A DNA stretch of 64,000 nt from Chitinophaga sp. LS1 (lineage in GTDB: Bacteria > Bacteroidota > Bacteroidia > Chitinophagales > Chitinophagaceae): the NCBI RefSeq assembly GCF_034274695.1, contig NZ_CP128362.1, positions 6,698,501 through 6,762,500 of the forward strand, given 5' to 3'. The notes beneath the pieces are model-generated. The model did no database searches, was not told where the DNA came from, and worked only from the letters and a program-made list of their open reading frames with translations. The position numbers and the translations under genes are program-made. This document shows, one piece after another, positions 1-42,020 of this stretch (its first letter is position 1; each line of letters opens with the position of its first letter).

Positions 1-109
1 AGGTCTGAAGCCGGGAGACAGGGTAGTGTACGAAGGGGTACGCAATCTTAGAGAGGGTATGCAGATCAATCCGACGGTGATTTCGCTGGATAGTATCAGG
101 GCATTGTAA
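1..109 (+). CDS. RND efflux periplasmic adaptor subunit, C-terminal end (partial)
   Basis: Only the last 35 codons lie in the window. They read in frame from base 2 to a TAA at 107-109, and contain GLKPGDRVVYEG and end in VISLDSIRAL. The GLKPGDRVV motif is typical of the membrane-proximal domain of HlyD/AcrA-type membrane fusion proteins, which bridge an inner-membrane RND pump and an outer-membrane channel. The RND permease gene starts about 200 bases downstream on the same strand, which fits an adaptor-permease-channel operon. The 3' end of this gene is repeated twice more downstream (see the repeat at 75-229). Assignment rests on a short stretch and on context. Confidence 0.75.
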   Translation, partial: GLKPGDRVVYEGVRNLREGMQINPTVISLDSIRAL

Positions 110-229
110 TGATCAGTGTATTGATCTATCTGTGCGGTGATTTCGCTGGATAGCATCAGGGCAGTGTAATGATCAGTGCAGTGATCTATCTGTGCGGTGA
201 TTTCGCTGGATAGTATCCGTGCCCTTTAA
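75..229 (+). repeat. Three-copy 60-bp tandem repeat of the adaptor gene's 3' end
   Basis: The block beginning CGGTGATTTCGCTGGATAG occurs at 75, 135 and 195, an exact 60-bp period. Each copy ends in an in-frame TAA (107-109, 167-169, 227-229). Copy one is the real end of the adaptor gene. The copies encode VISLDSIRAL, VISLDSIRAV and VISLDSIRAL. Between the first and third copies the last three sense codons differ at five bases, all of them synonymous. Confidence 0.9.
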
Positions 230-308
230 AGCAAATTATCAATCCGGTGGCATACATCTAAGTGGTGCGACCTGATAGATAAATCATTTTCATCTTTTAC
301 ATCATTTT

Positions 309-3300
309 ATGTTTGATACATTTATCAAGCGGCCCGTGCTGTCGCTAGTCATCTCGTTAATCATAGTCCTGCTGGGCCTACTGGCACTATTCTCTCTGCC
401 AGTCACCCAATTTCCCGACATCGTTCCTCCATCCGTTACCGTTACCGCCAAGTACACGGGTGCGAATGCCGAAGTATGTGCCAAAGCCGTGGCCACTCCA
501 TTGGAAAGAGCCATCAATGGTGTACCGGGTATGACCTACATGTCGTCTGTATCCAGCAATACCGGTGTCACACTGATCTCCGTTTCTTTCGCCGTTGGTA
601 CAGATCCGGACCAGGCCGCAGTAAACGTACAGAACCGTGTGGCCACCATCCTCGATGAATTACCTGAAGAGGTCATCAAAGCCGGTGTGAGTACGGAAAA
701 AGAAGTGAACAGTATGCTGCTTTACCTCAACATCATGAGTGAAGACAGCACCCTCAATGAAAAATTCATTTACAACTTTGCAGACATCAACGTATTGCAG
801 GAGTTAAAACGTATCGATGGCGTTGGCTTTGCGGAGATCATGGGCGCTAAGGAATACGCCATGCGCGTATGGCTGAAACCCGATCGTATGTTGGCTTACA
901 GCGTTAGTGCCGACGAAGTGGTGGAAGCCATCCGTAAACAAAACATCGAAGCAGCCCCCGGTAAAACAGGGGAAGCCGCTGACAATGATCCACAGGTATT
1001 ACAATACATCTTACGCTATACCGGAAAATTCTTTGAACCTGGGCAATATGAAAATATCATCATCCGCGCCAATGCCGACGGCTCTGTATTAAAGCTGAAA
1101 GAAGTGGCGGACGTGGAATTCGGCGCACTCAGTTATGGCATGGTATCCAAAACAGATGGTAAGCCTTCTGCATCTATCATGCTCAAACAACGCCCCGGTT
1201 CCAATGCACAGGATGTAATTGCGAATGTAAAAAGCCGTATGGCTGAACTGAAGGAAACCTCTTTTCCACCGGGCATGACGTACAACTTCAACTACGACGT
1301 ATCCCGTTTTCTGGATGCCTCTATCCATGAAGTATTACGTACACTGGTAGAAGCATTCATCTTAGTATTCATCGTGGTATTCCTCTTTATACAGGACTTC
1401 CGCTCTACCCTCATACCTGCACTGGCAGTGCCGGTAGCGTTGATCGGTACATTGGCATTTATGCAAATGATGGGTTTCTCTATCAACCTGCTCACCCTGT
1501 TTGCATTAGTGCTTGCCATTGGTATAGTGGTCGATAATGCCATTGTGGTGGTGGAAGCTGTGCATGTAAAAATGCATGATCAGCACATGGCTCCCATGCA
1601 AGCCACACTGGCGGCAATGCGGGAAATAAGCGGGGCACTGGTGGCGATTACATTGGTCATGTCTGCCGTATTTATCCCGGTGGCATTCCTCTCAGGCCCT
1701 GTGGGCGTGTTCTACAGACAGTTCTCCCTCACCATGGCAATTGCAATTGTGATTTCGGGTATCAATGCCGTAACCCTCACGCCTGCTCTGTGTGCGATTA
1801 TGCTCAAAAATCACCATGCAGCGGGCAAGCCCCGTACATGGCTACAAAAGTTCTTCGATAAATTTAACTATCGTTATAATAAGACAGAAAAGAAATACCA
1901 GCACCTGGTTGGATATATTGCAGGCAGGCGCATGATCACAATCGGGATGCTGGCATTCTTTTTCATTGCTACCTGGGGCGTGAGCGCGATTCTGCCCGGA
2001 GGCTTTATTCCTGCTGAAGACCAGGGGATGATCTATGTGAACGTCACGACGCCTGCAGGTGCCACTGTATCCAGAACGGAGGCTGTGCTGGATGAAGTAC
2101 AGAAAGTAGCAGCAAATCTGAAAGAAACAGAATCGGTATCTATACTGGCGGGGTATAGCCTGGTGAGTGAAGTAGCGGGTGCCAGCTATGGCATGGGTAT
2201 GGTGAACCTGAAACCATGGGAAGAAAGAAACCGGTCTGTGAAAGAGATCATTGCACAATTAGAGAAAGATACCCGCAACATTAATGATGCAAGTATTGAG
2301 TTCTTCCCACCTCCTACCGTACCGGGTTTTGGTAACTCGAGTGGTTTTGAACTGCGTGTGCTGGACAAGAGTGGTAGTGGAGACTTAAGACAAACAGCGG
2401 ATGTAACGACAGCATTCATCAACGCATTGAAAGAAAGAAAAGAAATCGGAAGTGCATTTACCAGCTTTGACCCTGACTTTCCACAATATATGATTCATGT
2501 GGACCAGGCCATGGCAGCGAAGAAGGGCGTGAGTATAGATAATGCCATGAGCACGTTGCAGACATTGCTGGGCAGTTATTATGCCTCTAACTTTATACGT
2601 TTCGGCCAGATGTATAAGGTGATGGTACAGGCATCGCCCCGCTATAGAACCAAGCCGGAAGATATCCTGCATTTGTATGTCAAGAATGATAAAGGCGAGA
2701 TGGTGCCTTATTCCAACTTTGTAAGCCTGGAAAGAGTGTATGGACCAGAGCAGCTCACACGTTATAATATGTATACAGCGGCGATGGTGAATGGAGATGC
2801 GGCGCCGGGATATAGTAGTGGTGATGCTATCAAAGCTATTGAAGAAGTGGCGAAGCAGAAACTGCCACGTGGATTTAGTTTTGAGTGGAGTGGGATGACG
2901 AGAGAACAGATCCTTTCAGGTAATCAGGCGGTGTACATTTTTGCGATTGTATTGTTGTTTGTGTATTTGTTGCTGGCAGCACAGTATGAGAGTTTCTTAT
3001 TGCCATTGCCGGTGATATTATCACTACCGGCGGGGATCTTCGGGGCTTTCCTTACGTTGAAACTGGCGGGATTGGAGAATAATATTTATGCGCAGGTGGC
3101 ATTGGTGATGCTGGTTGGTTTGTTGGGTAAGAATGCGATATTGATAGTGGAGTTTGCGATCCTGAAACATAAGCAGGGTGCTTCGATATTGGAGAGTGCG
3201 AAGGAAGGTGCGGTGTCTCGTTTGCGTCCGATTTTGATGACTTCGTTTGCCTTTATTGCAGGGTTGATCCCTCTGTGTGTTGCGAATGGTGCAGGTGCGA

Positions 3301-4982
3301 TGGGGAATAGGTCGATTGGTACAGCGGCAGCGGGGGGAATGTTGATAGGAACGGTATTCGGTGTGGTGGTGATTCCGGGGTTGTATGTGCTGTTTGCAGG
3401 GATAGCGGAGAAGAGGAGGAAGCCACATGTGGTGAAGGCGCATCATGTGGTGACGGTGTTGGTGTTAGGGGTGTTGATGAGTAGTTGTTATACGCCGAAG
3501 GCAGTGGAGTATCCTGAGGTGCCTGCGGTACCTGGGGAGCATGCGATGCCTGCGGGACATGAGGTGCCTGCGGAGCATGAGGTGCATGAGGTGCATGCGG
3601 TGCCTACGGGGCATGCGATACCTGCGGAGCATGAGGTGCCTGCGGGGCTTGTAACAAATGTATCAGCTAAAACAAAGGATACAACAGCTACTACCCCACT
3701 TACTTACCAACAGTTTTTTGCAGACCCATATCTCAGGCAATTACTGGATACTGCCTTACATAATAATACGGATATACAGTTAGCGCTGCAGCGGGTGGAA
3801 ATGACAAAGGCACAGTTGCTGGTAGCCAGCAAGGCATGGTTGCCGGCTGTGAATGCGGCTGTAGATGCAGGTGTAGAAAGATATGGTGATTATACCATGA
3901 ATGGCGTAGGTAACTATGATACCAACCTTTCACAGAATATAGACAATAATCAAAAGATACCGAATCCTACGCCGAATTACTTTATTGGGCTGAAGAGTGC
4001 GTGGGAAATAGATCTGTGGGGGAAGTTAAAGAATGGTAAGAAAGCAGCACAGCAGCGGATGCTGGCGAGTGAGCAGGGAAAACGACTGGTGACCACGCAG
4101 TTGATAGCAAATGTAGCGGGGATGTATTACCAGCTATTGGCACTGGATAATGAGCGAACTGTATTGCAACGCAACATTGCCTTGCAGCAATCAGCGCTGT
4201 CGACAGTACGTATTCAGCAGGAAGCGGGAAGAGCGACATTGCTGGCAGTGCAACAATTTCATGCGCAGTTGTTGAATACACAGAGTTTGATGATGGGGAT
4301 TCAGCAACAAACGACAAGGTTGGAGAATCAGTTGAATGCGTTGCTGGGTCGGTTTCCGCAGGCGATACCGAGAGATACTTCTTTGCTGACAGCCCCATTG
4401 CCTCCTTATGCGAGTGCAGGCATGCCGGCGACATTGTTATCTCATCGTCCGGATATTCAGCAGGCAGCGCTGGAATTGGGTGCAGCGAAAGCGGATGTGG
4501 CAGCGGCGAAGGCGGCGTTTTTACCATCGCTGAATATCAATCCCTATGTAGGATTTAATAGTTTCAGGGCGAATTTATTATTTAATACGGGGTCAGTGGC
4601 TTATGGGTTGTTAGGAGGTGTGACGGCGCCGATATTTAATAAGAAGCAGCTGGCGGCACAGTACCAGGTGAATTCGGCAACGGCATTAAGTGCGTTTTAT
4701 AATTACAGACAAAGAGTGATAGATGGGTACCAGGAAGTGATGACGGCGCTGAGCCAGTTGCATAATGGCCAGGAGGCATTCAGGCTGAAAGAAGCAGAAG
4801 TGACGATGTTGAAGGATGGGGTATCGACAGCGAATGACCTGTATATGACGGGGTATGCGAACTATCTGGAGGTGATTACAGCGCAAAAGAGTGTGTTGGA
4901 GGCAGAGTTGGCGCTGGCAAATAACAGGAAGGAGTTGTTTTTGGGAACGATTGAGTTGTATAGGGCGTTGGGAGGAATGTAA
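309..4982 (+). CDS. RND efflux permease (HAE-1/AcrB type) fused to a NodT/TolC-like outer-membrane factor
   Basis: Single 1557-codon frame. Residues 1-1040 are a complete RND permease beginning MFDTFIKRPVLSLVIS, with the proton-relay Asp409 in GIVVDNAIVVVE and the conserved Lys941 in LLGKNAILIVE. Residues 1043-1060 form a hydrophobic segment ending in a lipobox-like LMSSC (Cys1060), as in outer-membrane lipoprotein channels. Residues 1067-1113 are a His/Glu/Pro-rich repetitive linker, and about 1120-1557 is an OMF domain (YQQFFADPYLRQLLDTAL, repeated coiled-coil arms, SHRPDI). Pumps of this class expel drugs or solvents using the proton gradient. The adaptor gene lies just upstream. Separate permease and channel genes are the norm, so this is a gene fusion. 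An AGGAGG at 3414-3419 precedes an in-frame GTG at 3429, so separate initiation of the channel is possible. Confidence 0.9.
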   Translation: MFDTFIKRPVLSLVISLIIVLLGLLALFSLPVTQFPDIVPPSVTVTAKYTGANAEVCAKAVATPLERAINGVPGMTYMSSVSSNTGVTLISVSFAVGTDPDQAAVNVQNRVATILDELPEEVIKAGVSTEKEVNSMLLYLNIMSEDSTLNEKFIYNFADINVLQELKRIDGVGFAEIMGAKEYAMRVWLKPDRMLAYSVSADEVVEAIRKQNIEAAPGKTGEAADNDPQVLQYILRYTGKFFEPGQYENIIIRANADGSVLKLKEVADVEFGALSYGMVSKTDGKPSASIMLKQRPGSNAQDVIANVKSRMAELKETSFPPGMTYNFNYDVSRFLDASIHEVLRTLVEAFILVFIVVFLFIQDFRSTLIPALAVPVALIGTLAFMQMMGFSINLLTLFALVLAIGIVVDNAIVVVEAVHVKMHDQHMAPMQATLAAMREISGALVAITLVMSAVFIPVAFLSGPVGVFYRQFSLTMAIAIVISGINAVTLTPALCAIMLKNHHAAGKPRTWLQKFFDKFNYRYNKTEKKYQHLVGYIAGRRMITIGMLAFFFIATWGVSAILPGGFIPAEDQGMIYVNVTTPAGATVSRTEAVLDEVQKVAANLKETESVSILAGYSLVSEVAGASYGMGMVNLKPWEERNRSVKEIIAQLEKDTRNINDASIEFFPPPTVPGFGNSSGFELRVLDKSGSGDLRQTADVTTAFINALKERKEIGSAFTSFDPDFPQYMIHVDQAMAAKKGVSIDNAMSTLQTLLGSYYASNFIRFGQMYKVMVQASPRYRTKPEDILHLYVKNDKGEMVPYSNFVSLERVYGPEQLTRYNMYTAAMVNGDAAPGYSSGDAIKAIEEVAKQKLPRGFSFEWSGMTREQILSGNQAVYIFAIVLLFVYLLLAAQYESFLLPLPVILSLPAGIFGAFLTLKLAGLENNIYAQVALVMLVGLLGKNAILIVEFAILKHKQGASILESAKEGAVSRLRPILMTSFAFIAGLIPLCVANGAGAMGNRSIGTAAAGGMLIGTVFGVVVIPGLYVLFAGIAEKRRKPHVVKAHHVVTVLVLGVLMSSCYTPKAVEYPEVPAVPGEHAMPAGHEVPAEHEVHEVHAVPTGHAIPAEHEVPAGLVTNVSAKTKDTTATTPLTYQQFFADPYLRQLLDTALHNNTDIQLALQRVEMTKAQLLVASKAWLPAVNAAVDAGVERYGDYTMNGVGNYDTNLSQNIDNNQKIPNPTPNYFIGLKSAWEIDLWGKLKNGKKAAQQRMLASEQGKRLVTTQLIANVAGMYYQLLALDNERTVLQRNIALQQSALSTVRIQQEAGRATLLAVQQFHAQLLNTQSLMMGIQQQTTRLENQLNALLGRFPQAIPRDTSLLTAPLPPYASAGMPATLLSHRPDIQQAALELGAAKADVAAAKAAFLPSLNINPYVGFNSFRANLLFNTGSVAYGLLGGVTAPIFNKKQLAAQYQVNSATALSAFYNYRQRVIDGYQEVMTALSQLHNGQEAFRLKEAEVTMLKDGVSTANDLYMTGYANYLEVITAQKSVLEAELALANNRKELFLGTIELYRALGGM

Positions 4983-5168
4983 GGAGAAGAAAGGATTGCC
5001 CTGGGGAACGATTGAGTTGTATAAGGCTCACGAAGGAATGTAAGGAGAAGAAAGGAATTGCCTTGGGGAACGATTGAGTTGTATAAGGCTCACGAAGGAA
5101 TGTAAGGAGAAGAAAGGAATTGCCTTGGGGGACGATTGAGTTGTATAGGGCTCACGAAGGAATGTAAG
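4945..5168 (+). repeat. Four-copy 61/62-bp tandem repeat of the RND-OMF gene's 3' end
   Basis: The sequence GAACGATTGAGTTGTATA, which encodes the C-terminal TIELY of the fused pump, recurs at 4945, 5006, 5068 and 5130 (periods 61, 62, 62). Each copy ends GGAATGTAA, so the gene's stop codon is carried by every copy. Copies two to four are nearly identical. Because the period is not a multiple of three, the copies lie in different frames relative to the gene. Confidence 0.9.
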
Positions 5169-7030: not shown

Positions 7031-7215
7031 GGGACTAGAAAGTAAAATGAAGGCGCTGGGAATTGCGTAAAAGCCATTTCGTCTCCATCACACTTACCCG
7101 AGAGTGAGTCCCCTTTTAGCCTCGTTTTATTCGGGTACCTAATTGAGATAAGTAGTCCTTTATGCAATTCTGAAGAGGGTTATTTATTTTTGATAGATCC
7201 TGTTTTTTTCTGCAT

Positions 7216-7269
7216 TTAAAGAGCTGTTGTATTTAAAGTGCCGTTGCATTTAGAGACCCGTTGCATTTA
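7216..7269 (-). repeat. 17-bp tandem repeat of the cheB stop-codon region
   Basis: On the minus strand the cheB end TCTCTCTAA is followed by three 17-bp units: ATGCAACGGGTCTCTAA, ATGCAACGGCACTTTAA and ATACAACAGCTCTTTAA. TAA stop codons fall at 7267, 7250, 7233 and 7216, so the period is exactly 17. Each unit also begins ATG or ATA. Confidence 0.8.
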
Positions 7270-7833
7270 GAGAGACATTACCCACTCCACCATATCGCGC
7301 TGGCGCAACACCCTATCCACCTTCACCACTCCCATCGCATACTTAGGCATAAACGACACCTCTGCCTCCGCCGGATCCTGCACCGCCACTACCGCTCCCA
7401 TCGCCTTCGCCATCTGCAACCCCTCTCCTCCATCCGTATTCGCTCCTGATAATAATAAACAAGCTAACTGCTCCTTTATGACCTCCGCAGCTGAAATAAA
7501 TGTCACATCTATACTCGGCCTGCTATAATTTACCTTCTCAGAATAATCCAACGTAATCGTACCATCCGGCTCTATCAATAAATGGTAATCCGACGGCACT
7601 ACATACACCATTCCCGCTGTCAGCAAATCCTTCTCCTCCGCTTCCTTCACAGGCAAGATACTCCTTGCCGCCAGCAAATCAGACAATAACGAATCGTTAT
7701 CGCTCTTGCGGTGCAATACAATAATAATCGCCAGCTTACAAGCCGGATCTAACAACGGTAATAATTGTAACAATACCTCCAGACTACCTGCAGACCCTCC
7801 TATCACCAATGTTCGGGGAATCGAAACTGTCAT
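7267..7833 (-). CDS. cheB: CheB-type methylesterase domain protein
   Basis: 188 residues, only the catalytic domain of a chemotaxis methylesterase with no receiver domain. The catalytic triad is visible: Ser14 in IGGSAGS, His41 in VLHRKSD and Asp134 in ANTDGGEG. Such enzymes remove methyl esters from, or deamidate, glutamyl residues of receptors. The gene overlaps the end of cheR by 4 bases, so the two are translationally coupled. No chemoreceptor, CheA or flagellar gene is in the window, so the role is probably in a sensory relay with the REC-PAS-kinase encoded opposite (inference). Confidence 0.88.
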   Translation of the reverse strand: MTVSIPRTLVIGGSAGSLEVLLQLLPLLDPACKLAIIIVLHRKSDNDSLLSDLLAARSILPVKEAEEKDLLTAGMVYVVPSDYHLLIEPDGTITLDYSEKVNYSRPSIDVTFISAAEVIKEQLACLLLSGANTDGGEGLQMAKAMGAVVAVQDPAEAEVSFMPKYAMGVVKVDRVLRQRDMVEWVMSL

Positions 7834-8896: not shown

Positions 8897-9706
8897 ATGA
8901 GTTTATCCTTAAACAGAGGAGCGCTAAGCGCTACCGTATTGTCAGCAGCATTAGCTATTTGCGCTTTTAAGCCTGCACCTTGCGACAACAATGGAGGTCT
9001 TCTCCATGCGATTTCTTCGCCGACTGACAAAACTGTTCTAACGTACAATGCAGACAAAAGTATTGCCAAACTGGTAACTACTCATGCAATGGGGGACGAT
9101 CAGTACACAGATGTGCGTATCCCGGTTTATCAATCCGGCAAACTTGTAAAAACGATGAGTACAGCCGATGAAAGTCAGGCTCCTACCCTGTTCTCTTCCT
9201 TCGGGTACGATAGCAAGGGCCGTATTGACAAGATCAGTTATTATGAAGAAAACCAGGTATCTGGCTACGATTCACTGGTGTATGACACCAAGGGGCAGTT
9301 GGCCGCGAGGTATTTCTTCGTGATGCAGGCCGGGAAACAAACATTTGAAAATCACTATTGTCAGTTGTACACCTGGGATCAGAAAGGCAACATTATCCAA
9401 CAGGAAAACATGGGTCGGGTTGCAAACAATGTTGCATTTGCATTGAGTTCTACAGTTGCATTCCAGTATGATGACAAGCTGAATTCACAGAAGAGCGTTC
9501 CGGGGTTTGGTTATATCACTGACCTGAATGCGGTAAATCTTTCTGCTAATAACATCGTCTCTGAGGTGATTACAACGGCGAATGGAGCGAATGCGATTTC
9601 TAAAAGTTACGCATATAATTACAATAGTAAGCAGTATCCTGCACAGATAACGGCTAAGAATAGTGGTACCAATGAGGAAGTGGTGACTGAATTGACATGG
9701 GAATAA
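8897..9706 (+). CDS. Secreted YD-repeat-like protein of unknown function
   Basis: 269 residues with an N-terminal signal sequence (about 1-25). The body has repeated short strands of the type FGYDSKGRIDKISYYEE, LVYDTKGQLAARYF and YTWDQKGNIIQQENM, resembling the YD-repeat beta structures of RHS-like and DUF4595-like proteins of Bacteroidota. No catalytic motif is seen. It stands alone between cheR (divergent) and the antiporter (convergent). Its 3' end is followed by about 380 bases of TAA-containing tandem repeats. Function unknown; a surface or periplasmic location is likely. Confidence 0.75.
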   Translation: MSLSLNRGALSATVLSAALAICAFKPAPCDNNGGLLHAISSPTDKTVLTYNADKSIAKLVTTHAMGDDQYTDVRIPVYQSGKLVKTMSTADESQAPTLFSSFGYDSKGRIDKISYYEENQVSGYDSLVYDTKGQLAARYFFVMQAGKQTFENHYCQLYTWDQKGNIIQQENMGRVANNVAFALSSTVAFQYDDKLNSQKSVPGFGYITDLNAVNLSANNIVSEVITTANGANAISKSYAYNYNSKQYPAQITAKNSGTNEEVVTELTWE

Positions 9707-10090
9707 TGGGAATGTTTTTCCAGTAAATTGTCAAGGTTTGCTGTAAAATGTGAATGGTTCTTTTGTAAACTGTAAATGTTTGCTGTAAACGGTCAATGGT
9801 TCCAGTAAACCGTGAAGGGTTCCTTTGTAAACTGTAAATGTTTGCGGTAATCGGTCAATGGTTCCAGTAAACCGTGAATGGTTCCTTTACAAACTGTCAA
9901 TGTTTGCTGTAAAATGTCAATGCTTCCAGTAAACCGTGAATGGTTCCTTTACAAACTGTCAATGTTTGCTGTAAACTGTTAATGCTTACAGTAAACCGTG
10001 AATGGTGCCTTTACAAACTGTCAATGTTTGCTGTAAACTGTTAATGCTTACAGTAAACCGTGAATGGTGCCTTTACAAACTGTCAATGTT
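9702..10090 (+). repeat. Array of 20-22-bp units (about 62-bp higher-order period) after the YD-like gene
   Basis: About eighteen units of the form GTAAACYGTSAATGSTTCC run from the stop codon of the upstream gene almost to the terminator at 10103. Three units of 20, 20 and 22 bp make a 62-bp higher-order repeat. The end of the gene (GGAATAATGGGAATG) aligns with the units so that its TAA matches the TAA in each unit. No spacers of unique sequence are present. This array fills the intergenic region of about 455 bases. Confidence 0.85.
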
Positions 10091-10102
10091 TCCAATATAA
10101 CG

Positions 10103-14493: not shown

Positions 14494-14747
14494 CTGTCAC
14501 GAAGTTAATATCGCAACAATTTTTAGGGTTAATATGTTAAAAACAATAGATTTAAACAGGTCTACCTATTTCACTCGGTAATACGGAGTTAAATGCCTAA
14601 ATATCAGTGAGTATTAGTTACCTAAAACGAGGGATTTTTTGTTAATTTTTGGTTAACAAACGTTAATTCATGACGTTTACCGGATAAATTATATCATTTA
14701 CCAAAATTGATTAGGCGGCACCAAGCTGTCGTATATCTTTGGTTTAG

Positions 14748-14811
14748 GTTTTTCATAGGATATGGTTAAAAAATTAAGGGCGGTATTCTTACCGCCCTTC
14801 TCTATTTTTGT
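14748..14811 (+). ncRNA. Candidate small RNA between promoter-like box and terminator
   Basis: A TATCTTTG box at 14734-14741 is followed after about 35 bases by a GC-rich terminator hairpin. No open frame lies between, so a transcript of about 60-65 bases would be made. It could also be an attenuated leader of the next gene. Weak evidence. Confidence 0.25.
14776..14811 (+). terminator. Rho-independent terminator
   Basis: Stem AAGGGCGGT / ACCGCCCTT with loop ATTCTT, followed by TCTCTATTTTTG. It lies about 150 bases before the SDR gene. Confidence 0.75.
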
Positions 14812-16934: not shown

Positions 16935-17460
16935 ATGGGTACATCACCCGAACCTCCTGTGCCGGCAGCGACGATGATCACCTGGGTATTTGAAGGAGAT
17001 TCCTGTATACTGGTAGCGAAAATCGTGAATGGTAAACATTATTCCATCCTCTCTGATTATCCCGGCGTACCTTTTGCTGCATACGATGACGCTGGTGTAG
17101 CGGAATGGTCCTGTGAATTGGATATTTATGGAAAGGTTCGTAAGTTAGGCAATTGTTTGCTTCTGGTAATGGTGCGAAGTTAACACCGGCGCAACGTGCC
17201 AGGTTGATAAAATTGGGTGTACCACCTGAGAATATTTATAGTGGGGTGGCTTATAAAAAGAAGCCAATACCTAAGACGAAGGTGAAGTCCGGGTGAAGTC
17301 TGTGAGAAAGGCTTACAATCTGGAAAGCCACGCGGAGAGAGTGATTATCAGGAATGCGCAGGAGGGGACAAAGTTTACAAGATGGGGGATTTCGTGGGCG
17401 AAGTATCAGAAGAATGAGCCGTGTAGTAATTGTAAGCCGCATGTGGAGTGTGCATCGTAG
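16935..17460 (+). pseudogene. Broken Rhs gene: core fragment plus deaminase-like toxin tail
   Basis: Three reading-frame pieces. First (16935-17183), an RHS core fragment with NGKHYSILSDYPGVPFAAYD and WSCELDIYGKVRKLG, typical of the conserved core of Bacteroidota Rhs proteins; the expected continuation around the core end (FRYQGQYED-type motif) is deleted. Second, from about 17170, LTPAQRARLIKLGVPPENIYSG to a TGA near 17295. Third, shifted by a short partial duplication, a tail with HAERVII and NEPCSNC, the His-Ala-Glu and Pro-Cys-x-x-Cys zinc motifs of nucleic-acid deaminase toxins, ending CKPHVECAS at 17460. Full Rhs genes run to thousands of bases, so this is a remnant. Two genes likely to be immunity genes follow. 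Confidence 0.75.
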
Positions 17461-17531
17461 ATATCATGCATGAATTCTCAAAGAATGATCCCTGGCCTTA
17501 CTGTAAGCCGCATGTGGAGTGTGCATCATAA
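17395..17531 (+). repeat. 71-bp tandem duplication of the toxin gene's 3' end
   Basis: TGTAAGCCGCATGTGGAGTG occurs at 17431 and again 71 bases later, each followed by a short tail and a stop codon (TAG at 17458-17460, TAA at 17529-17531). The more diverged upstream part (AGAATGAGCC versus AGAATGATCC) also aligns. The last residues of the deaminase-like tail, CKPHVECAS, are thus encoded twice, each time with a stop. Confidence 0.85.
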
Positions 17532-18116: not shown

Positions 18117-18685
18117 TGGAACAATTGACCTTTTCTTCTTTTGATAAAACACTCAAAGAAAACTTTACCAATCTCCCATTTGAACAATGCCTGTTTTTTG
18201 GTGTGTGGAATGCAGAGTACCTGTATCACAAATATGCCAATCACCTGCTGGAACTGGAAGATGAAGAAGGTTATGAAATCCTCACCGACGCCCTCGCCTA
18301 CCTGTGGGATGCTGTAGACAAAACAGCGAATATAGAAGAAGAGGAAGTAGACAACCAGATCCTGCGCCTGCATGATATTAGTTTAGACCAGCTGGACCAG
18401 GACGAAGCCAAAGGTATCGGCGTCGTGAAACTGATGGAATGCCTGGAAAGTGGGTTGGTATATATAGAAGAAAAGAACTACGAATTTATCGCAGCCTGTG
18501 CTTACTTCCCACTGGATGTAGCAGATGTGATCATGACAAATGAATTGGGACTGGATACCAATGATCCCAATAAACATATTCATCATCCGCTGATGCAGGT
18601 GGAGTTTGAAGCGGAACTGAAAATGATGGAATATTTACAGATCTATAGGGATGTAAGCAGTAAGGAAAAAAACTTATTCAGGTAG
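18113..18685 (+). CDS. Paralogue of the preceding putative immunity protein
   Basis: 190 residues (ATG at 18113 or 18116), overlapping the stop of its neighbour. The two share the pattern LPFEQCLFFGVWNAEYLYHKYA, ALAYLWDAVD, DQLDQDEAKGIGVVKLMECLESGLVY, ACAYFPLDVADVI and the ending KEKNLFR versus SKDKTIFR. The sequence identity is modest, so the duplication is old. Very acidic. Role as for the preceding gene: an immunity function is inferred from position only. Confidence 0.6.
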   Translation: MMEQLTFSSFDKTLKENFTNLPFEQCLFFGVWNAEYLYHKYANHLLELEDEEGYEILTDALAYLWDAVDKTANIEEEEVDNQILRLHDISLDQLDQDEAKGIGVVKLMECLESGLVYIEEKNYEFIAACAYFPLDVADVIMTNELGLDTNDPNKHIHHPLMQVEFEAELKMMEYLQIYRDVSSKEKNLFR

Positions 18686-18707
18686 CACCTGATTACCTGA
18701 GCCAGGA

Positions 18708-18745
18708 AACAGGTTGTATTATCAATACGATCCAGCCTGTTTTTT
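18708..18745 (+). terminator. Weak terminator between convergent genes
   Basis: AACAGG / CCTGTT stem with a long loop, followed by TTTTTTC; it overlaps the 3' end of the HxlR gene. Confidence 0.4.
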
Positions 18746-19120
18746 CTTCTCTTTTTCATCTTCATACCGCTTCCTGTTACCCAGGATGGTCTCCAAATGT
18801 TCCTGTCCCCAGTGCAGCAGATTATTAATAGGCGGAATCAGGCTCTTCCCCAGTTCTGTCAATTCGTATTCTACTCTTGGCGGTATTTCAGGATAAAACT
18901 CCCTCGAAATCAATCCATCTGCCTCCAAAGAGCGAAGCGTAACTGTGAGCATTTTCTGTGAAATATCTTCAATACTGGTGGCGATCTCGCTAAACCGCAT
19001 CTTTCCTTTGTGAGACAGCAGTTCTACTACCAGGATGGACCATTTATCACCGAACCGATCCAGCACATGTCTTATCGGACAAAAAGCCGGCTTAAATTTC
19101 TCAGAATTATTTTCAACCAT
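18722..19120 (-). CDS. HxlR-family transcriptional regulator
   Basis: 132 residues. Winged-helix HxlR domain with the signature CPIRHVLDRFGDKWSILVVELL (Cys at the N-terminus, possible redox sensor), MRFSEIATSIEDISQKMLTVTLRSLEADGLI as the recognition region, and PPRVEYELTELGKSL in the wing. HxlR proteins usually control adjacent oxidoreductase or stress genes. It is divergent from a small open frame and the YceI genes. A TTACC-N4-GGTAA palindrome lies about 25 bases upstream of its start. Confidence 0.9.
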   Translation of the reverse strand: MVENNSEKFKPAFCPIRHVLDRFGDKWSILVVELLSHKGKMRFSEIATSIEDISQKMLTVTLRSLEADGLISREFYPEIPPRVEYELTELGKSLIPPINNLLHWGQEHLETILGNRKRYEDEKEKKKQAGSY

Positions 19121-19144
19121 AACCCGCTGATTTTCAATATTAGT

Positions 19145-19335: not shown

Positions 19336-19464
19336 ATGTTGAAACACATTTTGTTTAAAAAAGTATATATCTTCGGTCCCGAATCGCCTGGCACAAATAG
19401 TACTTTAAAAGCGGTCAAAAGGACTGCTCAGAAGCAGAAACAATTCTATCATTCGGTTTATTAG
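19336..19464 (+). CDS. Small open frame (42 codons) whose end seeds a repeat array
   Basis: ATG at 19336, TAG at 19462. It begins MLKHILFKKVYIFGPESPG and is basic. No family was recognised. The main reason to record it is that its last 20 codons (KRTAQKQKQFYHSVY plus stop) are repeated four more times immediately downstream with a 60-bp period, the same arrangement seen after accepted genes in this window. Coding status is uncertain. Confidence 0.3.
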   Translation: MLKHILFKKVYIFGPESPGTNSTLKAVKRTAQKQKQFYHSVY

Positions 19465-19712
19465 ATGAAAGGGGTCGTTAAAACACTGCTCAGGAACAAA
19501 CAGAACTATCATTCAGTTTAATAGATGATAGCGGTCGTTAAAACACTGCTCAGGAACAAACAGAACTATCATTCGGTTTAATAGATGATAGCGGTCGTTA
19601 AAACACTGCTCAGGAACAAACAGAACTATCATTCGGTTTAATAGATGATAGGGGTCGTTAAAACACTGCTCAGGAACAAACAGAACTATCATTCGGTTTA
19701 ATAGATGATAGC
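19413..19712 (+). repeat. Five-copy 60-bp tandem repeat with a micro-ORF in each later unit
   Basis: Units begin with GGTC at 19413, 19473, 19533, 19593 and 19653; the last four are nearly identical and the first is diverged. In one frame, units read ATG, seventeen more codons, TAA-TAG; the repeated peptide is MIAVVKTLLRNKQNYHSV (MKG at its start in the first one). Each unit also holds a CTATCAT / ATGATAG inverted repeat with a 12-base loop. The array fills much of the region between the HxlR and YceI genes; no unique spacers are present. Confidence 0.9.
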
Positions 19713-19795
19713 GGTCCTAAAAAGACCAATATTATGAACATAGAACAATAAATTTCATTTTTAAAATAAAAGCAATCCAAAAAACACCAGCTAAC

Positions 19796-22778: not shown

Positions 22779-22801
22779 GGGCTATCTAAAAAACGGATAG
22801 C

Positions 22802-23269: not shown

Positions 23270-23358
23270 TGGGGCGATGCACAACACCTACAAAATATAA
23301 TGAACGCAATTGAAAGTTGTATAATAACCTTATCAGGAATTTACCTCGTCAATTTTAG

Positions 23359-24693
23359 ATGAAAATATATTTATTCACCGCGATCGAACAGGCATTTAAA
23401 AAAGAATTTTATCAGCAGATCCGGTCTCAGAATATTCGGGTGACAGGCATTACAGCCAAGATTGTATTGTTTACCACGCTTGTTACCCACATTCTTACGC
23501 TGACGTTGCCGGCGAGTAGTTCCCTGCCTGCGGGACAACAGGTTCAACTGATTATTATACAGCGGTTCCTGCTTATAAGTTCAGCGGTGATTGCTTTGGC
23601 TATCTACCTGATCCGTACTAAACTGTCTTCATTAGAGCAAAACCGATACCATTTCCTGGTCATTCTCTTTGCCTTGTGTTTTATTGGGAGTTGTATGGGA
23701 CTGACTTTCGTATCGCAACACAATCCTAAGAACACAATGACCATGATGCTGATAGGTTTCCTGGTCATAGCCATGGTACAGGTATTTTCATTCAGACAAC
23801 TCATCACCATTTGCCTGGTTACGGGGGCAACCTTTTCCATCTTTTTCCACCTCTTCCAGGTGAACAAGGTGGCGCTGGTGGGGAACATGGTTATATTCTG
23901 GCTCATGATGTGTGCATTTCTTGTAGTTTCCAGACTGTTATATTCTTATCACGCCAATTATTTTATAAAGATAAAAACTATTGAACAGAAAAACGAGGAG
24001 ATTGCGGCTGCTAATAAACTGAAGACAGAAATTCTGGGGATTGTAGCGCATGACCTGCGTAGCCCTATTTCGGGCATTCGTTCTGTACTGCACCTGATGC
24101 AGGAGTACCCCTTTACCCCTGAGCAGGAGAATAAATACCTGGCCTGGATCAGCGAGGCCTGCACTACTGCGGACCAGATTATTGAGGAACTGCTCTCAGC
24201 GGCAAGGCAATCAGATGAAAACAAACTACAAACTAATTATATTTCCCTGAATGACTGGCTGGTGAATGTGCGTGACAACTGGCAACAACAAGTCAGGCAC
24301 CAACAGCGGGTATTGCTGGAGTTGCCTCAGGGAGAGATAAAAGCACATATTCATACCGGCAAACTACAGCGGGTGGTAGATAACCTGCTACACAATGCAA
24401 TGAAGTTTACACCTGATGGAGGGGATATAACCCTTGGCATGCGGCCGCATCGTGGAGGCGTGCGGATCTCTGTGGCAGATACAGGTATAGGTATCCCGGA
24501 GGAGATGCTACCTAATATCTTCGACCGGTTTACTTCAGCCAGGCGTAAGGGCCTTCATCATGAACCTTCCACCGGGCTGGGGTTGCATATCTGCAAGCAG
24601 CTGGTGCAGCAACACGGTGGTAATATCTACGTTTCATCACAAGAGAATAAAGGTACTATCTTTAATATCGACCTGCCTTTTACAGTGTTATAA
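23359..24693 (+). CDS. Membrane histidine kinase
   Basis: 444 residues. N-terminal membrane domain with about six helices (about 35-200), then a HisKA domain with the phosphoacceptor His in GIVAHDLRSPISGIRS (about 225-240), and a HATPase domain with DNLLHNAMKFTPDGG (N box), VADTGIGIPEEM (G1), FDRFTSAR (F box) and STGLGLHICKQLV (G2). The sensor part resembles 6TM/MASE-like input domains, so it senses a membrane-borne or redox signal (inference). No response regulator is adjacent, making it an orphan kinase. Confidence 0.92.
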   Translation: MKIYLFTAIEQAFKKEFYQQIRSQNIRVTGITAKIVLFTTLVTHILTLTLPASSSLPAGQQVQLIIIQRFLLISSAVIALAIYLIRTKLSSLEQNRYHFLVILFALCFIGSCMGLTFVSQHNPKNTMTMMLIGFLVIAMVQVFSFRQLITICLVTGATFSIFFHLFQVNKVALVGNMVIFWLMMCAFLVVSRLLYSYHANYFIKIKTIEQKNEEIAAANKLKTEILGIVAHDLRSPISGIRSVLHLMQEYPFTPEQENKYLAWISEACTTADQIIEELLSAARQSDENKLQTNYISLNDWLVNVRDNWQQQVRHQQRVLLELPQGEIKAHIHTGKLQRVVDNLLHNAMKFTPDGGDITLGMRPHRGGVRISVADTGIGIPEEMLPNIFDRFTSARRKGLHHEPSTGLGLHICKQLVQQHGGNIYVSSQENKGTIFNIDLPFTVL

Positions 24694-37696: not shown

Positions 37697-37891
37697 ATAA
37701 ATATTTGGGGATGGTTTTGGGAGGGGGTGTGGGGATGGTTTGAGAGGAGGTTTTTGGGGAGGTTGAGGAGGAGGTTTTTGGGGAGTGGTTTGAGAGGATG
37801 TTTTGGTGGGAGTGGTTTGAGGGGAGGTTTTGGAGGATGGTTTGAGAGGAGGTTTTGGTGGGAGTGGTTTGAGGAGGAGGTTTTTGGTGGT
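37697..37891. repeat. G-rich (plus strand) degenerate tandem repeat
   Basis: About 195 bases made of variants of GGTTTGAGAGGAGGTTTTGG with a period of about 26 bases. G-runs at 37706-37733 (four runs of three to five G) could form a G-quadruplex on the plus strand. The repeat lies between a terminator and the 5' region of the ABC exporter operon. An open frame on the minus strand (37641-37946) is low-complexity Pro/Thr/Ser and is not accepted as a gene. Confidence 0.8.
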
Positions 37892-37929: not shown

Positions 37930-38239
37930 TGACGCGTCCGCGTCACAGCTATTTTTGATGGAGCAACCCAGTTAGGCGATACTAACTGAAGGTTTCCATG
38001 AATATACTGTAGATTCCATGAATACCTCCTTTTCTTTGATGAGTTATGAAGTTAAGTAATTTTTACGTTTCAACAAAGCCCCACTTTTGTGTCATTTTAA
38101 TACAAAGAAGGCGCTTTTACTTTTGGTAAATTCGGTAAAAGCGTCTCTCTTTTAATCAATTACTAAAAACCTTTTAGTAATCAAATATTAAAAACTTTTC
38201 AGTAATCAATAATTAAAAAAAGGGGTTAGTAATCAATTA
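37930..38239. other. Intergenic region after the first SDR gene
   Basis: No gene seen. It holds an inverted repeat CGCTTTTAC / GTAAAAGCG (38112-38143) that may terminate the SDR transcript on the minus strand, a short direct repeat of TTCCATGAATA (near 37994 and 38020), and the AT-rich tail repeats at 38150-38242. Confidence 0.6.
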
Positions 38240-38242
38240 TTA
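38150..38242 (-). repeat. Degenerate 24-27-bp repeat at the end of the first SDR gene
   Basis: AGTAATCAA-like blocks occur at 38228, 38201, 38176 and about 38152 between A/T-runs. On the minus strand each block has the form ATTGATTACTRA, followed by a T-run, and the gene's own end (ATTAATACAACCTTTTAA) resembles one unit. The copies are diverged, so the relation to the gene end is likely but not certain. Confidence 0.6.
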
Positions 38243-39049
38243 AAAGGTTGTATTAATAGTGAGCTCCTTCCATTCACTGATCTCATCGAGAATGCTTTGC
38301 AACTTCTCTGGTACCAGCTCTGCAGCATCTTTACCAATTAAGAAATTCAATGGTGGATGATCACTCTTTGCCATTTCAATAATAGCTGCTACCCCTTTTT
38401 CAGGATCGCCGGGTTGCTTACCATCGAGGTCTGCATGCCATTGAATAGAATCCTTTACAGATTGGTATTTACTTTCTGTTACACTCAGATCAGCACCCAG
38501 GAAGTTGGTTCTGAAATAACCTGGTAATACAACGGTGGCTTTCACACCAAATTCTTTGATCTCTTCTCGCAGGCCTTCTGTCAATCCAACTACTGCGAAT
38601 TTAGTAGAGCAGTAGATCGCCCATCCTGGGAAACCTCCAAGCATACCGGCTACAGACGCGATATTGATAATATGGCCAGAGCGTTGCTCACGCAAATGCG
38701 GCATTACCTGTCTGATTACATTCAGTAAACCAAAGACGTTTATATTGAAATTTTCTCTGGCGTCTTTATCACTTACTTCTTCTAATGCACCTACTTGCCC
38801 GTATCCGGCATTGTTTACGACTACATCTATTTTACCAAATGTGCTGATCGTCTTTTCTATTGCGGCCTTTACACTTTCTTCTGAAGTAAGTGATACCGTG
38901 AGCGGCAGGAAATCATTTCCAGAAAATTCGCCTAAGGAAGCTGCATCACGTGAGGTGGCTGCTACGTTATAGCCTTTTGCTAATAACTGGGAGACTAAGA
39001 TGCGGCCAAAACCTTTGGAGGCACCTGTTACAAACCATACTTTATTCAT
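38240..39049 (-). CDS. Short-chain dehydrogenase/reductase
   Basis: 269 residues. Cofactor motif GASKGFGR near the N-terminus, NNAG in VVVNNAGYGQVG, catalytic Ser in NIASVAGMLG and YCSTK (Tyr-x-x-x-Lys), and the end extension GDPEKGVAAII typical of NADP-dependent oxidoreductases of the YusZ/retinol-dehydrogenase-like group. It lies 98 bases after a paralogous SDR gene on the same strand; the two share the GDPEK and LNFLIG/VYLLLG patterns. The substrate is unknown. The AraC gene upstream probably controls the pair. Confidence 0.88.
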   Translation of the reverse strand: MNKVWFVTGASKGFGRILVSQLLAKGYNVAATSRDAASLGEFSGNDFLPLTVSLTSEESVKAAIEKTISTFGKIDVVVNNAGYGQVGALEEVSDKDARENFNINVFGLLNVIRQVMPHLREQRSGHIINIASVAGMLGGFPGWAIYCSTKFAVVGLTEGLREEIKEFGVKATVVLPGYFRTNFLGADLSVTESKYQSVKDSIQWHADLDGKQPGDPEKGVAAIIEMAKSDHPPLNFLIGKDAAELVPEKLQSILDEISEWKELTINTTF

Positions 39050-39175
39050 ATAATAATAGGTTGATTGTGTTAAAGATTCGGGGATTGAAAGCGGATGTTA
39101 ATAATCGGTTGATTGTGTTAAGGATTCAGTGGCTTTGAAAGCTGCTGTCAATAATCAGTTGACTTCGTTAAGGAT
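39050..39175 (-). repeat. 50-bp tandem duplication of the second SDR gene's 3' end
   Basis: The gene end encoding LTAAFKATESLTKSTDY-stop is copied once 50 bases downstream on the minus strand as LTAAFKATESLTQSTDY-stop, with only a few base changes (stops at 39148-39150 and 39098-39100). A third, more diverged copy (CCGCTTTCAATCCCCGAATC) runs up to the start codon of the next SDR gene. The copies fill the whole 98-bp spacer between the two genes. Confidence 0.9.
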
Positions 39176-39981
39176 TCAGTGGCTTTGAAAGCTGCTGTCA
39201 ATTGTTCCATCTTATTCAGGCCCCGCTGATAAGCATCACTGCCTAATAAAAGGTACACTGGCGGTTCCGGCATATTTACCAATTGTATCATTGTTGCCGC
39301 AGCCTTTTCCGGATCACCAGCCTGTTCTCCATCCATGCCTGCATACTTTGCATGAGAATTCCTGATCGCAGTATAATCAGCAATTGGCGTATCTGTCATC
39401 ACTAATGACTCAGCAGTGAGGAAACTGGTGCGGAATGCACCTGGTGCTACAAGGGTAACATGTATGCCGAACTCTTTTACATCTTGTGCCAAAACATCTG
39501 TCAAACCTGTAATGGCATATTTAGTTGCTGCATAAACAGACCAACCGGTATTCGCTGTTATACCAGCAATAGAAGATATATTAATGATATGCCCGCTTCT
39601 TTTTTGACGCATGAAAGGCAATACATGCCTGATCACATTCAGCGTACCAAATACATTGATATCAAAGCTGGTGCGCGTCACCGCATCAGATAATTCTTCT
39701 ATACTGCCACCGATGCCATAACCGGCATTGTTTACAGCTACATCTATCTGTCCGAATTTGTCAACGGTAGATTGAATAGCGCTTGCTACGCTCCTATCAT
39801 CAGACAGATCTACCTCTAAAGGGAGGAAGTTACTATTATCATTGCCCACAGCTGCTGCTAAAGCCGCAGCATTGCGGGAGGTAGCTGCCACAGACTGGCC
39901 AGCCGCAAGTAATTGCTTTACCAAACTTAGGCCTAATCCTTTGGAAGCTCCTGTTACAAACCAGGTCTTTTTGTTGTCCAT
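39148..39981 (-). CDS. Short-chain dehydrogenase/reductase (paralogue)
   Basis: 277 residues from the ATG at 39981 (MDNKKTWFVTGASKGLG). A candidate -7 box TAATTTTG at 40003-40010 overlaps the alternative ATG at 40005, so 39981 is preferred. SDR motifs GASKGLGL, NNAG in VAVNNAGYGIGG, NISSIAGI and YAATK. Close paralogue of the next gene, and shares with it the C-terminal AGDPEKAAATMIQL pattern. NAD(P)-dependent oxidoreductase of unknown substrate. Confidence 0.88.
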   Translation of the reverse strand: MDNKKTWFVTGASKGLGLSLVKQLLAAGQSVAATSRNAAALAAAVGNDNSNFLPLEVDLSDDRSVASAIQSTVDKFGQIDVAVNNAGYGIGGSIEELSDAVTRTSFDINVFGTLNVIRHVLPFMRQKRSGHIINISSIAGITANTGWSVYAATKYAITGLTDVLAQDVKEFGIHVTLVAPGAFRTSFLTAESLVMTDTPIADYTAIRNSHAKYAGMDGEQAGDPEKAAATMIQLVNMPEPPVYLLLGSDAYQRGLNKMEQLTAAFKATESLTKSTDY

Positions 39982-40148: not shown

Positions 40149-40490
40149 CTATAAAACATGATATCAGGAGGATGTACTGCTAGCATACCTCTTAAAGATG
40201 TTTTATACAAACCGGGTAAGAAGAAAAGGTAAATTATATTTATATCTCTTAAAGGTGTTTTATACCACCCGATAAGAAGACAAAACTACGGTTATGTCTC
40301 TTAAAGCTGCTTTATACAACCCGATAAGAAGACAAAAACTACGGTTATGCCTCTTAAAGCTGCTTTATACAACTCCATAAGAAGACAAAACTACGGTTAT
40401 GCCTCTTAAAGCTGCTTTATACAACCCGATAAGAAGACAAAACTACGGTCATGCCTCTTAAAGCTGCTTTATACAACCCGATAAGAAGAA
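40149..40490 (-). repeat. Seven-copy 52-57-bp tandem repeat of the araC-type gene's 3' end
   Basis: On the minus strand the gene end TCTTATCGGGTTGTATAA (SYRVV-stop) recurs with TAA at 40469 (gene), 40417, 40365, 40312, 40260 and 40203, plus a degraded copy near 40149. Spacing is 52, 52, 53, 52, 57 and 54. Between the copies lies AGCAGCTTTAAGAGGCAT, which also repeats. Copies near the gene are almost identical and those farther away are diverged. The array occupies most of the 463-bp gap before the SDR gene. Confidence 0.92.
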
Positions 40491-41371
40491 GGCGTACTAC
40501 TTGTATGTTTTTTAAAGAAATTATTAAAGTGTGCCGGTTCCTCAAAGCCAAGACTATAACTAATCTCCGCAATGTTCCAGTTAGTATGTTTCAGCAGCGC
40601 TTTAGCTTCGCCCAGTAATCGTTCTGCAATATGATCAGTAGTCGTCTTGCCAGTAGTCTCCCGGATGGCCCTATTCAGGTGGTTTACATGGACCGCCAGT
40701 TTATCAGCAAAATCCCGGGCAGAGCGCAAAGTGAAGCGTTGGTGAGGTGTTTCTATTGGAAATTGTCTTTCCAACAGTTCGGTGAAGATCGCTGTAATGC
40801 GGGCATTTGCATCTGTATGCTGGTAAAGCATTTCTGATGGCTGCATTTTCAGGGCATAATGAATCATCTCTGTAACATAGTTGCGCAACAGGTCGTACTT
40901 ATATTTATAATCAGAGTTGATTTCTTCCAGCATCTTTTTAAAGATGGCGCTCACATGCTTATCCTGGGTTTTGTTTAGCATGTAGGCAGGTTTACTGCCC
41001 AGCGCAAACATAGGAAGTTCATTGATATTGGTACGTAATGATTCCGTGAAGAAGGATTCTTTGAAGATGCAAAAGTAGCCAGCCCTTTCATTCTGTAAGG
41101 ATTCGTAAGTATAAGGTACATTGGGATTGAAGAACATCAATGCGGTCCCGTCTGCTTCGATACTTTTATCTGCGTAATGATAGACGGTACGGCCCCTGAT
41201 CAGGCTGATTTTATAAAAATCCCTGCGGGCGTAGTGGATGGGTGTACCGCCTGGGCTTAAGGTATCTTCTATCCGGAATACATTAAAATGCCCGATATCC
41301 TGTTTCAGGTTATCAGGTAGCCAGTTAAATTTATGCTGGTAGAATTCTTCGAGTGTTTCCCTGTTTGCCAT
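40469..41371 (-). CDS. AraC-family transcriptional regulator
   Basis: 300 residues. N-terminal cupin-like ligand domain (about 20-160; GTPIHYARRDFYKISLIRGR) and C-terminal double helix-turn-helix (about 205-300) with HVNHLNRAIRETTGKTTTDHI and WNIAEISYSLGFEEPAHFNNFFKKHT, the second being the AraC signature. It activates or represses genes in response to a small ligand. It lies upstream of two SDR genes on the same strand and is the likely regulator of them. Its first bases overlap the disrupted ADP-ribosylglycohydrolase frame. Its 3' end carries a large tail repeat. Confidence 0.9.
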   Translation of the reverse strand: MANRETLEEFYQHKFNWLPDNLKQDIGHFNVFRIEDTLSPGGTPIHYARRDFYKISLIRGRTVYHYADKSIEADGTALMFFNPNVPYTYESLQNERAGYFCIFKESFFTESLRTNINELPMFALGSKPAYMLNKTQDKHVSAIFKKMLEEINSDYKYKYDLLRNYVTEMIHYALKMQPSEMLYQHTDANARITAIFTELLERQFPIETPHQRFTLRSARDFADKLAVHVNHLNRAIRETTGKTTTDHIAERLLGEAKALLKHTNWNIAEISYSLGFEEPAHFNNFFKKHTSSTPSSYRVV

Positions 41372-41783
41372 GGGGCGAAGTTACGAAATTCAAACAGATT
41401 CGATGATACTTTGCATTTAGGGGTATTCTGGTAAGGTTTGAAGCTTTGACAAAAGCGAAACCGGGAATACCGGCTTCCAGGTCTTTGAGAGCTTTTAATG
41501 TACTGGCGCCAAGGCCACTTAATCTTCCTTGTTTGTAATATAATAGAAAATGAGCCGCCAATACGGCGGGCTCAATTTTCCTGTACATCCCTAAAATCTC
41601 ACACGTTGCTAGTGTGAGTTGTGTATCGTCTGTCAACTTCCAACTTCGATCAGGTTCTGGCTTTTTGCCCCAGTACCAGGTTGTTTTGTCATCTTTTAAA
41701 TTGTCAAACTCCCAGGCACTCCCCCAGGCATCGCCGATGGCTCCTCCGATAATACAGGCTTTAAATCGATCTGCTATTTGCAT
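41331..41783 (-). pseudogene. Truncated ADP-ribosylglycohydrolase (DraG/ADPRH family)
   Basis: The first about 105 residues match the family: FKACIIGGAIGDAWGSAWEFD, the metal motif in LTDDTQLTLATCE, and GLGASTLKALKDLEAG. Then similarity stops near 41460 and the frame continues with unrelated residues to 41331, overlapping the start of the AraC gene. Complete enzymes are about 250-300 residues and need a second Asp-Asp motif that is absent here. Its ATG lies 3 bases after the stop codon of the last pnkp tail repeat, so it was probably the third gene of the RNA repair operon before losing its 3' half. Confidence 0.75.
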
Positions 41784-41786
41784 AGT

Positions 41787-42020
41787 TTATAATCTCGGAT
41801 CTACTGGTTCAATTTTCAGTGTCAATACACTAAATATATATTGATATTCTTTGCGCAACAGTCCTTATAACCTAAGATCTACTAATTCACTGTAAAAGGA
41901 CAATACTCCAAATACGTATTGCCCCTCATTGCTCAGTGGTCCTTACAATCTTGGATCTACTGGTTCACTCTCCAACGCCAACACCCCAAACACACATTGA
42001 TGCACTTTCGTCAACGGCGC
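41787..42020 (-). repeat. Three-copy 78-bp in-frame tandem repeat of the pnkp 3' end
   Basis: The gene ends FGVLALESEPVDPRL-stop (TAA at 41943-41945). Downstream come two diverged copies, each 78 bp (26 codons) and each closed by TAA (41865-41867 and 41787-41789). The copies read VFGVLSFYSELVDLRL and IFSVLTLKIEPVDPRL. The reading frame is kept, with no internal stop, and EPVDPRL is fully conserved in the last copy with synonymous third-base changes. Confidence 0.93.

Follow-up and report, generated by a model that had tools for sequence, protein, structure and literature searches.

Tandem repeats over gene 3' ends in Chitinophaga sp. LS1: a clade-specific burst of duplications, probably sorted by selection

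Why should the ends of unrelated genes, stop codons included, be repeated in tandem behind so many genes of one bacterium? The question is raised by a 64,000-nucleotide stretch of Chitinophaga sp. LS1 DNA (GCF_034274695.1; NZ_CP128362.1, positions 6,698,501 to 6,762,500 of the forward strand), which we call the window; in our numbering it is G000:C1:6698501-6762500, on a single contig of 8.67 Mb of the organism's own genome (G000). The original prediction, made from the letters alone, held that the terminal bases of about a dozen genes had been copied downstream two to about eighteen times, that stop codons seeded the copies, and that the cause might be copying of mRNA 3' ends, a selective role of iterated stops, or C-terminal variation by unit deletion. 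It knew of no published description, and our literature search likewise found none for gene-end arrays across a bacterial chromosome among the matches listed, subscription journals lying mostly outside it. We find that the repeats are real, that their excess at 3' ends is far above chance, and that their placement at gene ends is mostly what selection leaves standing, not the work of a process aimed at stops. They are probably ordinary bacterial minisatellites, or variable-number tandem repeat (VNTR) loci, whose tandem duplication and unit-wise expansion and contraction have been raised in this clade and filtered by selection.

Repeats in the window were assessed with Tandem Repeats Finder (TRF), gene-end alignments and direct-repeat scans, and genes were called with a purpose-made, non-standard hexamer-based caller. 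The genome-wide sample consisted of 80 stretches of 20 kb from the same genome (1.6 of 8.67 Mb, 1162 called genes; 12,500 of the bases are N). When the last 80 nt of each gene were aligned with the 300 nt downstream, a copy scoring at least 36 was present at 23 of 1050 gene ends, versus 1 of 1013 mirrored 5' ends and 3 of 930 mid-gene positions, so that 3' ends are indeed the commoner site, as had been predicted. Alignment to another gene's downstream region and to the reverse complement each gave 0 of 1050. The same test in two congeners found copies at 0 of 201 and 0 of 282 3' ends (5' ends, 0 of 192 and 1 of 271), and in 80 loci from other Bacteroidota at 5 of 1374 3' ends and 7 of 1342 5' ends, a single Hymenobacter locus supplying 11 of these 12 hits (4 of the 5 at 3' ends and all 7 at 5' ends).

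Is the stop codon itself the target? We counted as long-unit arrays those with a TRF period of at least 25 and a score of at least 100. The sample holds 60, of which 8 at stretch ends were unclassified; the other 52 comprise 9 intragenic and 43 non-intragenic arrays. The period is divisible by 3 in all 9 intragenic arrays, versus 14 of the 43 outside genes, where periods of 0, 1 and 2 modulo 3 occur 14, 13 and 16 times, with no frame bias. A stop only is covered by 19 of the 43, both a stop and a start by 5, a start only by 3 and neither by 16, while random placement (300 draws) expects 11.4 stop-only and 12.3 start-only arrays. The proximal edge lies within -70 to +60 of a stop in 37 of 43 (11.9 expected), and the same measure at starts gives 14 (11.9 expected). 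That intragenic periods are uniformly in frame indicates that selection filters array positions. Start-only arrays are depleted. Array edges are spread evenly over -60 to +60 around the stop (Kolmogorov-Smirnov p=0.46), and those inside genes evenly along one unit length (p=0.26). Placement is also predicted by a survival filter that forbids units inside genes, on start codons and in the P nt upstream of one, and allows them everywhere else; it was run on gaps of at most 400 nt, taken from stretches whose GC is 0.42 or more, a restriction picked after seeing the data. With P=100 nt the filter expects 81% of arrays near a stop (37 of 41 seen, p=0.09) and 50% over one (22 of 41 seen). On the even edges and the filter we reject the stop codon as a seed, and that part of the original prediction is not supported.

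Copies within the arrays have diverged: matches run from 75 to 100% and are below 95% in 33 of the 43 arrays. Hypermutation was considered as a source of this divergence, which the age of the arrays may explain. The printed consensus units are, by inspection, seemingly unrelated, and the araC array of the window (below), the sole array compared with its own genome, has one weak 76% match elsewhere. Unlike these long-unit arrays are two of 11-nt period that lie in divergent gaps (L013 3741-4024, about 26 copies; L014 5529-5634, about 10 copies).

How far beyond this genome do the arrays extend? Non-intragenic long-unit arrays number 51 in the 1.6 Mb of the sample, versus 0 in 310 kb of congener G007, 2 in 400 kb of G008 and 1 in 70 kb of the syntenic congener G010, which makes about 3 per 100 kb here, versus 0 for one congener and 0.5 for another; the 51 include the 8 stretch-end arrays and the counts for congeners and Bacteroidota loci omit arrays at edges. 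The G010 array lies 6 nt past a stop, and those of G008 are 107 and 91 nt from one. Among 60 search loci scanned, two (L083 and L113) were the own genome and the 58 from other genomes had no array. In the 1.94 Mb of the 80 Bacteroidota loci there are 13, of which a single Hymenobacter locus supplies six. The arrays are thus a clade-specific burst, several-fold in size. At L235 (Hymenobacter translucens), positions 18284-24188, six arrays of period 159/318 run across successive called genes and apparently form a cluster of repetitive genes. Along the LS1 contig, 39 of the 51 arrays fall in the 36 sampled stretches from 4.65 Mb upward and 12 in the 44 stretches before.

Within the window, the first 42 kb contain 12 merged TRF arrays, 3 of them intragenic; from 42000 to 64000 both TRF and the direct-repeat scan come up empty. 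The repeats that bear on the argument are as follows.

75..217, forward strand: 60-nt array, 2.4 copies, spanning the stop (107-109) of a gene that starts left of the window, which we take to be the efflux adaptor of the first reading (TRF and gene-end match)
3513..3645, forward strand: in-frame 18-nt array inside the RND-OMF gene, listed for comparison (TRF)
4929..5168, forward strand: 62-nt array, 3.9 copies, spanning the stop of the RND-OMF fusion gene 309-4982 (TRF; Pfam ACR_tran and OEP)
7211..7274, reverse strand: 17-nt array, 3.8 copies, covering the final 8 nt of the cheB-like gene 7267-7833 (TRF; Pfam CheB_methylest)
9723..10091, forward strand: 62-nt array, 6 copies, starting 17 nt past the stop of the YD-like gene 8897-9706, with a hairpin and T run downstream of the array (TRF)
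17410..17530, forward strand: two-copy repeat (17410-17459 and 17481-17530), spacing 71, 84% alike, with no called gene end there (direct repeats)
19446..19723, no strand: 60-nt array, 4.6 copies, in a divergent gap without a called gene end (TRF)
37704..37890, no strand: G-rich, irregular 12-13/52-nt array, 350 nt from the closest stop (TRF; partly N in the same-species strain described below)
38153..38257, reverse strand: 25-nt array, about 4 copies, covering the stop of the first short-chain dehydrogenase (SDR) gene, 38240-39049 (TRF; Pfam adh_short)
39052..39202, reverse strand: 50-nt array, 3.1 copies, spanning the stop of the second SDR gene, 39148-39981, and occupying the whole gap to the next gene (TRF; gene-end match 44/48)
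40188..40489, reverse strand: 52-nt array, about 5.7 copies, spanning the stop of the AraC-family gene 40469-41371 (TRF; Pfam HTH_18)
41787..42015, reverse strand: three copies of 73 nt, spacing 78, with 67-73% identity; the PNKP gene 41943-44486 ends in the first of them (direct repeats; Pfam PNKP_ligase; gene-end match 55/74)

Both SDR genes are short-chain dehydrogenases by Pfam. The divergent gap around 19446-19723 is flanked by genes 18722-19120 (reverse) and 19796-20368 (forward) and contains just the small open frame of the first reading. Ten of the twelve cases named in the original prediction are real repeats, and at seven of them (efflux adaptor, RND-OMF, cheB, both SDR genes, araC and pnkp) the repeat spans the called stop; for cheB and the first SDR gene the support is from TRF only, the gene-end alignment falling below the listing score. 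The repeats at the YD-like gene, the small open frame at 19336 and the Rhs gene (71 nt) exist and are not tied to a called stop. The remaining two cases are weak or missing: at the 86-residue gene, for which a 75-nt unit was claimed, there is a lone 16/17-nt match (score 29; top of 100 shuffles, 22), and the 45-nt repeat tentatively assigned to an 87-residue gene is absent (gene-end alignment score 19, no direct repeat). The count of about eighteen copies is reached only when the 62-nt unit at 9723-10091 (369 nt in total) is split into three parts of about 20 nt; TRF gives 6 units of 62. The pnkp-end copies are in frame to the stop despite their 67-73% identity, and take up the whole space before the next gene. 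Elsewhere in the window, dispersed short repeats of about 75-90 nt (7033-7117, 7119-7209 and 14732-14808) have many matches in G067, G068 and G074, the relatives described next, and look like repetitive extragenic palindromic (REP)-type or other small mobile repeats. Rfam has no match in the window.

When did the arrays arise, and do they still change? A search of the genus brought up G074, another strain of the species (a draft of 380 contigs), the sister species G068, and G067 and G071 as outgroups. The strains vary as predicted: six of the seven readable non-intragenic window arrays differ between LS1 and G074 by whole units, to within 1 nt, and two further arrays contain N in G074. In LS1 versus G074 the lengths are 240 and 178 nt at RND-OMF, 278 and 218 at the 19446 locus, 369 and 307 at the 9723 locus and 302 and 197 at araC, so that G074 is one unit shorter at the first three and two units shorter at araC; at the second SDR gene they are 151 and 202, and at the first 105 and 131, G074 being one unit longer at each. 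The cheB array is 44 nt longer in G074, which is no whole number of 17-nt units. The intragenic array at 3513-3645 has the same length in G074 (133) and measures 52 between anchors in the sister species.

The outgroup pieces that were read have the last copy, the one belonging to the gene, and none of the others; at the loci read, the arrays are made of local gene-end sequence, and it is the copy next to the gene that matches the single-copy state of the outgroups. The RND-OMF end is single-copy in the sister species and both outgroups, and the end at 75-217 is single-copy in both outgroups, the sister species having two or more copies in another arrangement and G074 N runs. At 9723-10091 the sister species has 3.7 copies and the outgroups have no array of the same period; the 19446 repeat is single-copy in the sister species and missing in G067; and the second SDR and araC ends are single in G067, the sister species having 3.4 copies of the former and an array at the latter. 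For pnkp, the gene end could be read in 18 of 35 loci, the others being in opposite orientation or without a stop, and among these 18 congener loci only G074 has a downstream copy. When TRF was run on relatives of 15 arrays, an array of the same period was found at 0 of 12 places in G067, 0 of 11 in G071 and 3 of 10 in the sister species, the last a low estimate, as four of its pieces were fetched because the array there seemed missing or short. Two further 9.5-kb queries covering nine arrays agree: G071 seems to lack the arrays, as does G067 wherever it aligned, while the sister species retains about half, a reading taken from the ends of listed matches and not from alignments. The arrays tested have mostly formed on the branch to this species and its sister, and they are still turning over. 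Assemblies do tend to fail at repeats, and G074 has N runs in two arrays; yet the same arrays, with diverged copies, stand in the separate assemblies of LS1, G074 and G068, and the control with another gene's downstream region was empty. An assembly or chance artefact is refuted because independent assemblies share the arrays, and we regard it as extremely improbable.

What process would leave such a pattern? If the arrays are ordinary minisatellites, local DNA would be duplicated in tandem and whole units then gained or lost, probably via replication slippage or sister-strand misalignment, at a duplication rate that would have risen in the clade. Duplications could start anywhere and would persist only where harmless. 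One over a stop, or just behind it, would leave the protein whole; one inside a gene would survive only in frame; and one over a start codon or promoter would alter expression and be lost. In a compact genome the surviving zone would then begin roughly one unit upstream of the stop and reach some 60 nt beyond it.

Several results weigh against this account. Weaker promoter protection underpredicts the near-stop share, giving 65% with P=0 (p=0.0002) and 75% with P=60 (p=0.012). Run over all gaps, long ones included, the filter expects only about 38% of arrays near a stop, versus 37 of 43 seen, a result that at first seemed to exclude neutrality; this departs from the restricted run because long gaps and low-GC stretches hold almost no arrays, there being 0 in 16 low-GC stretches with long gaps. 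That such stretches are arrayless because their DNA is young is a fair but incompletely tested explanation, checked in one stretch, L033 (G000:C1:4600001-4620000), a patchwork with about 6.6 kb in one piece common to the same-species strain. Arrays are also unevenly distributed around the GC-skew maximum (about 6.0 Mb), from which we presume the terminus by a rough reading of the samples: there are 20 in 14 stretches less than 0.75 Mb away, 2 in 18 at 2.5-3.5 Mb and 6 in 16 beyond (1.43, 0.11 and 0.38 per 20 kb, respectively; Spearman p=0.004), a trend that the filter does not predict. In the sister species, losses of arrays and separate gains are not told apart. The microhomology that might seed a first duplication shows no excess: in single-copy relatives, direct repeats at the right lag reach at most 3-6 nt, the control mean being about 4, in a comparison of low power after divergence. 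Finally, no gene for the raised rate was identified, MutS2 and RecJ having been checked in 8 genomes.

Three observations adjoin these points. L033 has low GC and pieces resembling many places in relatives, and is probably mobile DNA. Microhomology seeding was rejected on the scripted test, although two short direct repeats that seem to fit the unit length were picked by eye, post hoc and uncounted by the script: an ATTGA pair at the second SDR gene and a GCGGTC pair at the 19446 locus of the sister species. Loss of MutS2 or RecJ was discarded as the cause, both being present and intact in 8 of the 8 genomes looked at.

Some of these results could instead point to a mutational hotspot at transcribed gene ends, in which termination or transcription-replication collisions near the terminus generate duplications in this clade only. 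The excess of copies at 3' over 5' ends, the concentration near the skew maximum, the empty low-GC stretches and a near-stop share slightly higher than in every filter model are what such a hotspot would give. However, the filter with 100 nt of protection can reach the observed placement, edges are uniform around the stop, intragenic arrays exist too and are all in frame, and terminators are seldom inside arrays (see below). We consider a hotspot rather unlikely. Its bolder form, in which a Chitinophaga clade gained a duplication mutator that acts by termination-linked template switching at transcribed gene ends near the terminus and so duplicates 3' ends far above other neutral DNA, we hold to be unlikely as well.

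Could the units be copies of messages? A reverse transcriptase that copied mRNA 3' ends into DNA would account for units that derive from gene ends with their stops, and LS1 has 19 matches to RVT_1. Copying is disfavoured because copies of mRNA 3' ends should carry terminators: a scan with a simple hairpin-plus-T rule, applied to 42 gene-array pairs (39 distinct arrays), finds a terminator-like site inside the array in 4 pairs, three times at the upstream edge and once copied along with the units; among control genes, such a site lies within 60 nt of the stop in 152 of 640. Nor do reverse-transcriptase matches, which are not equivalent to genes, track the genomes that bear arrays: there are 3 in the array-bearing G074 draft, 11 in the array-poor G007, and 12 in G067, which had no array at 12 places. 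Moreover, 16 of the 43 arrays lie entirely between genes and 3 cover only a start. We therefore judge this mechanism highly improbable.

Do the repeated ends serve the cell, through mRNA stability, uncoupling, a guard against read-through, or variation of C termini? The arrays persist and vary between strains, some stop stands at the stop's place in 50 of 58 readable extra copies (no expectation was computed for this figure), and the pnkp copies retain an in-frame end with its stop. The gene's own stop triplet, on the other hand, is kept in 40 of the 58, versus 40.8 expected from neighbouring triplets, so a selective role of iterated stops is unsupported. C-terminal variation by unit deletion is disfavoured by the even spread of non-genic periods over the three frames, and the sister species lacks several arrays. 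Array-bearing gene entries of the sample and the window lean to TGA stops (10 of 25, versus 194 of 1162 among all genes; Fisher p=0.004, post hoc), which hints at weakly constrained genes. A selected function seems very unlikely to us.

A clade in which long-unit tandem duplications have multiplied several-fold, and whose close relatives lack them at the places tested, offers a natural system for asking what sets the rate of tandem duplication in bacteria. The placement of the arrays illustrates how, through a selection filter alone, neutral repeats can come to look as though stops had seeded them. If it were true that new duplications form at gene ends, this would be a new kind of transcription-linked mutation.

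How do these arrays compare with known repeats? Mycobacterial interspersed repetitive units (MIRU) are one sequence family common to many loci; the units here differ in that they look private to their loci. At E. coli tyrT, tandem repeats behind the gene carry the end of the tRNA gene, so that a gene 3' end lies within the tandem unit as it does here, at one tRNA locus versus dozens of protein genes. The tandem repeats of Borgs, archaeal extrachromosomal elements, are described as near-perfect and A-rich, about half of them in open reading frames, and as locus-unique, drawn from local sequence, recent, variable in unit number, abundant in the elements and nearly absent from the host (PMC9879509). 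Their units are divisible by 3 in reading frames and often not between genes, much as here, and local origin and clade-specific abundance are further likenesses; the differences are that our arrays are on a bacterial chromosome, have diverged copies, and lie predominantly at gene ends. A single-locus parallel is the rnc-fpg1 array of the M. tuberculosis complex, which is described as lineage-specific, variable in length between strains, and filling a gap that is 6-54 nt in other mycobacteria (PMC2734929). There is a likeness, too, to bacterial VNTR loci, which one account presents as units joined head to tail, with strains differing in copy number by whole units (PMC2884548). The LS1 arrays likewise are head-to-tail copies of units from about 10 to more than 100 nt, and differ from such loci in their higher density than in congeners and in their clear asymmetry of 3' over 5' ends.

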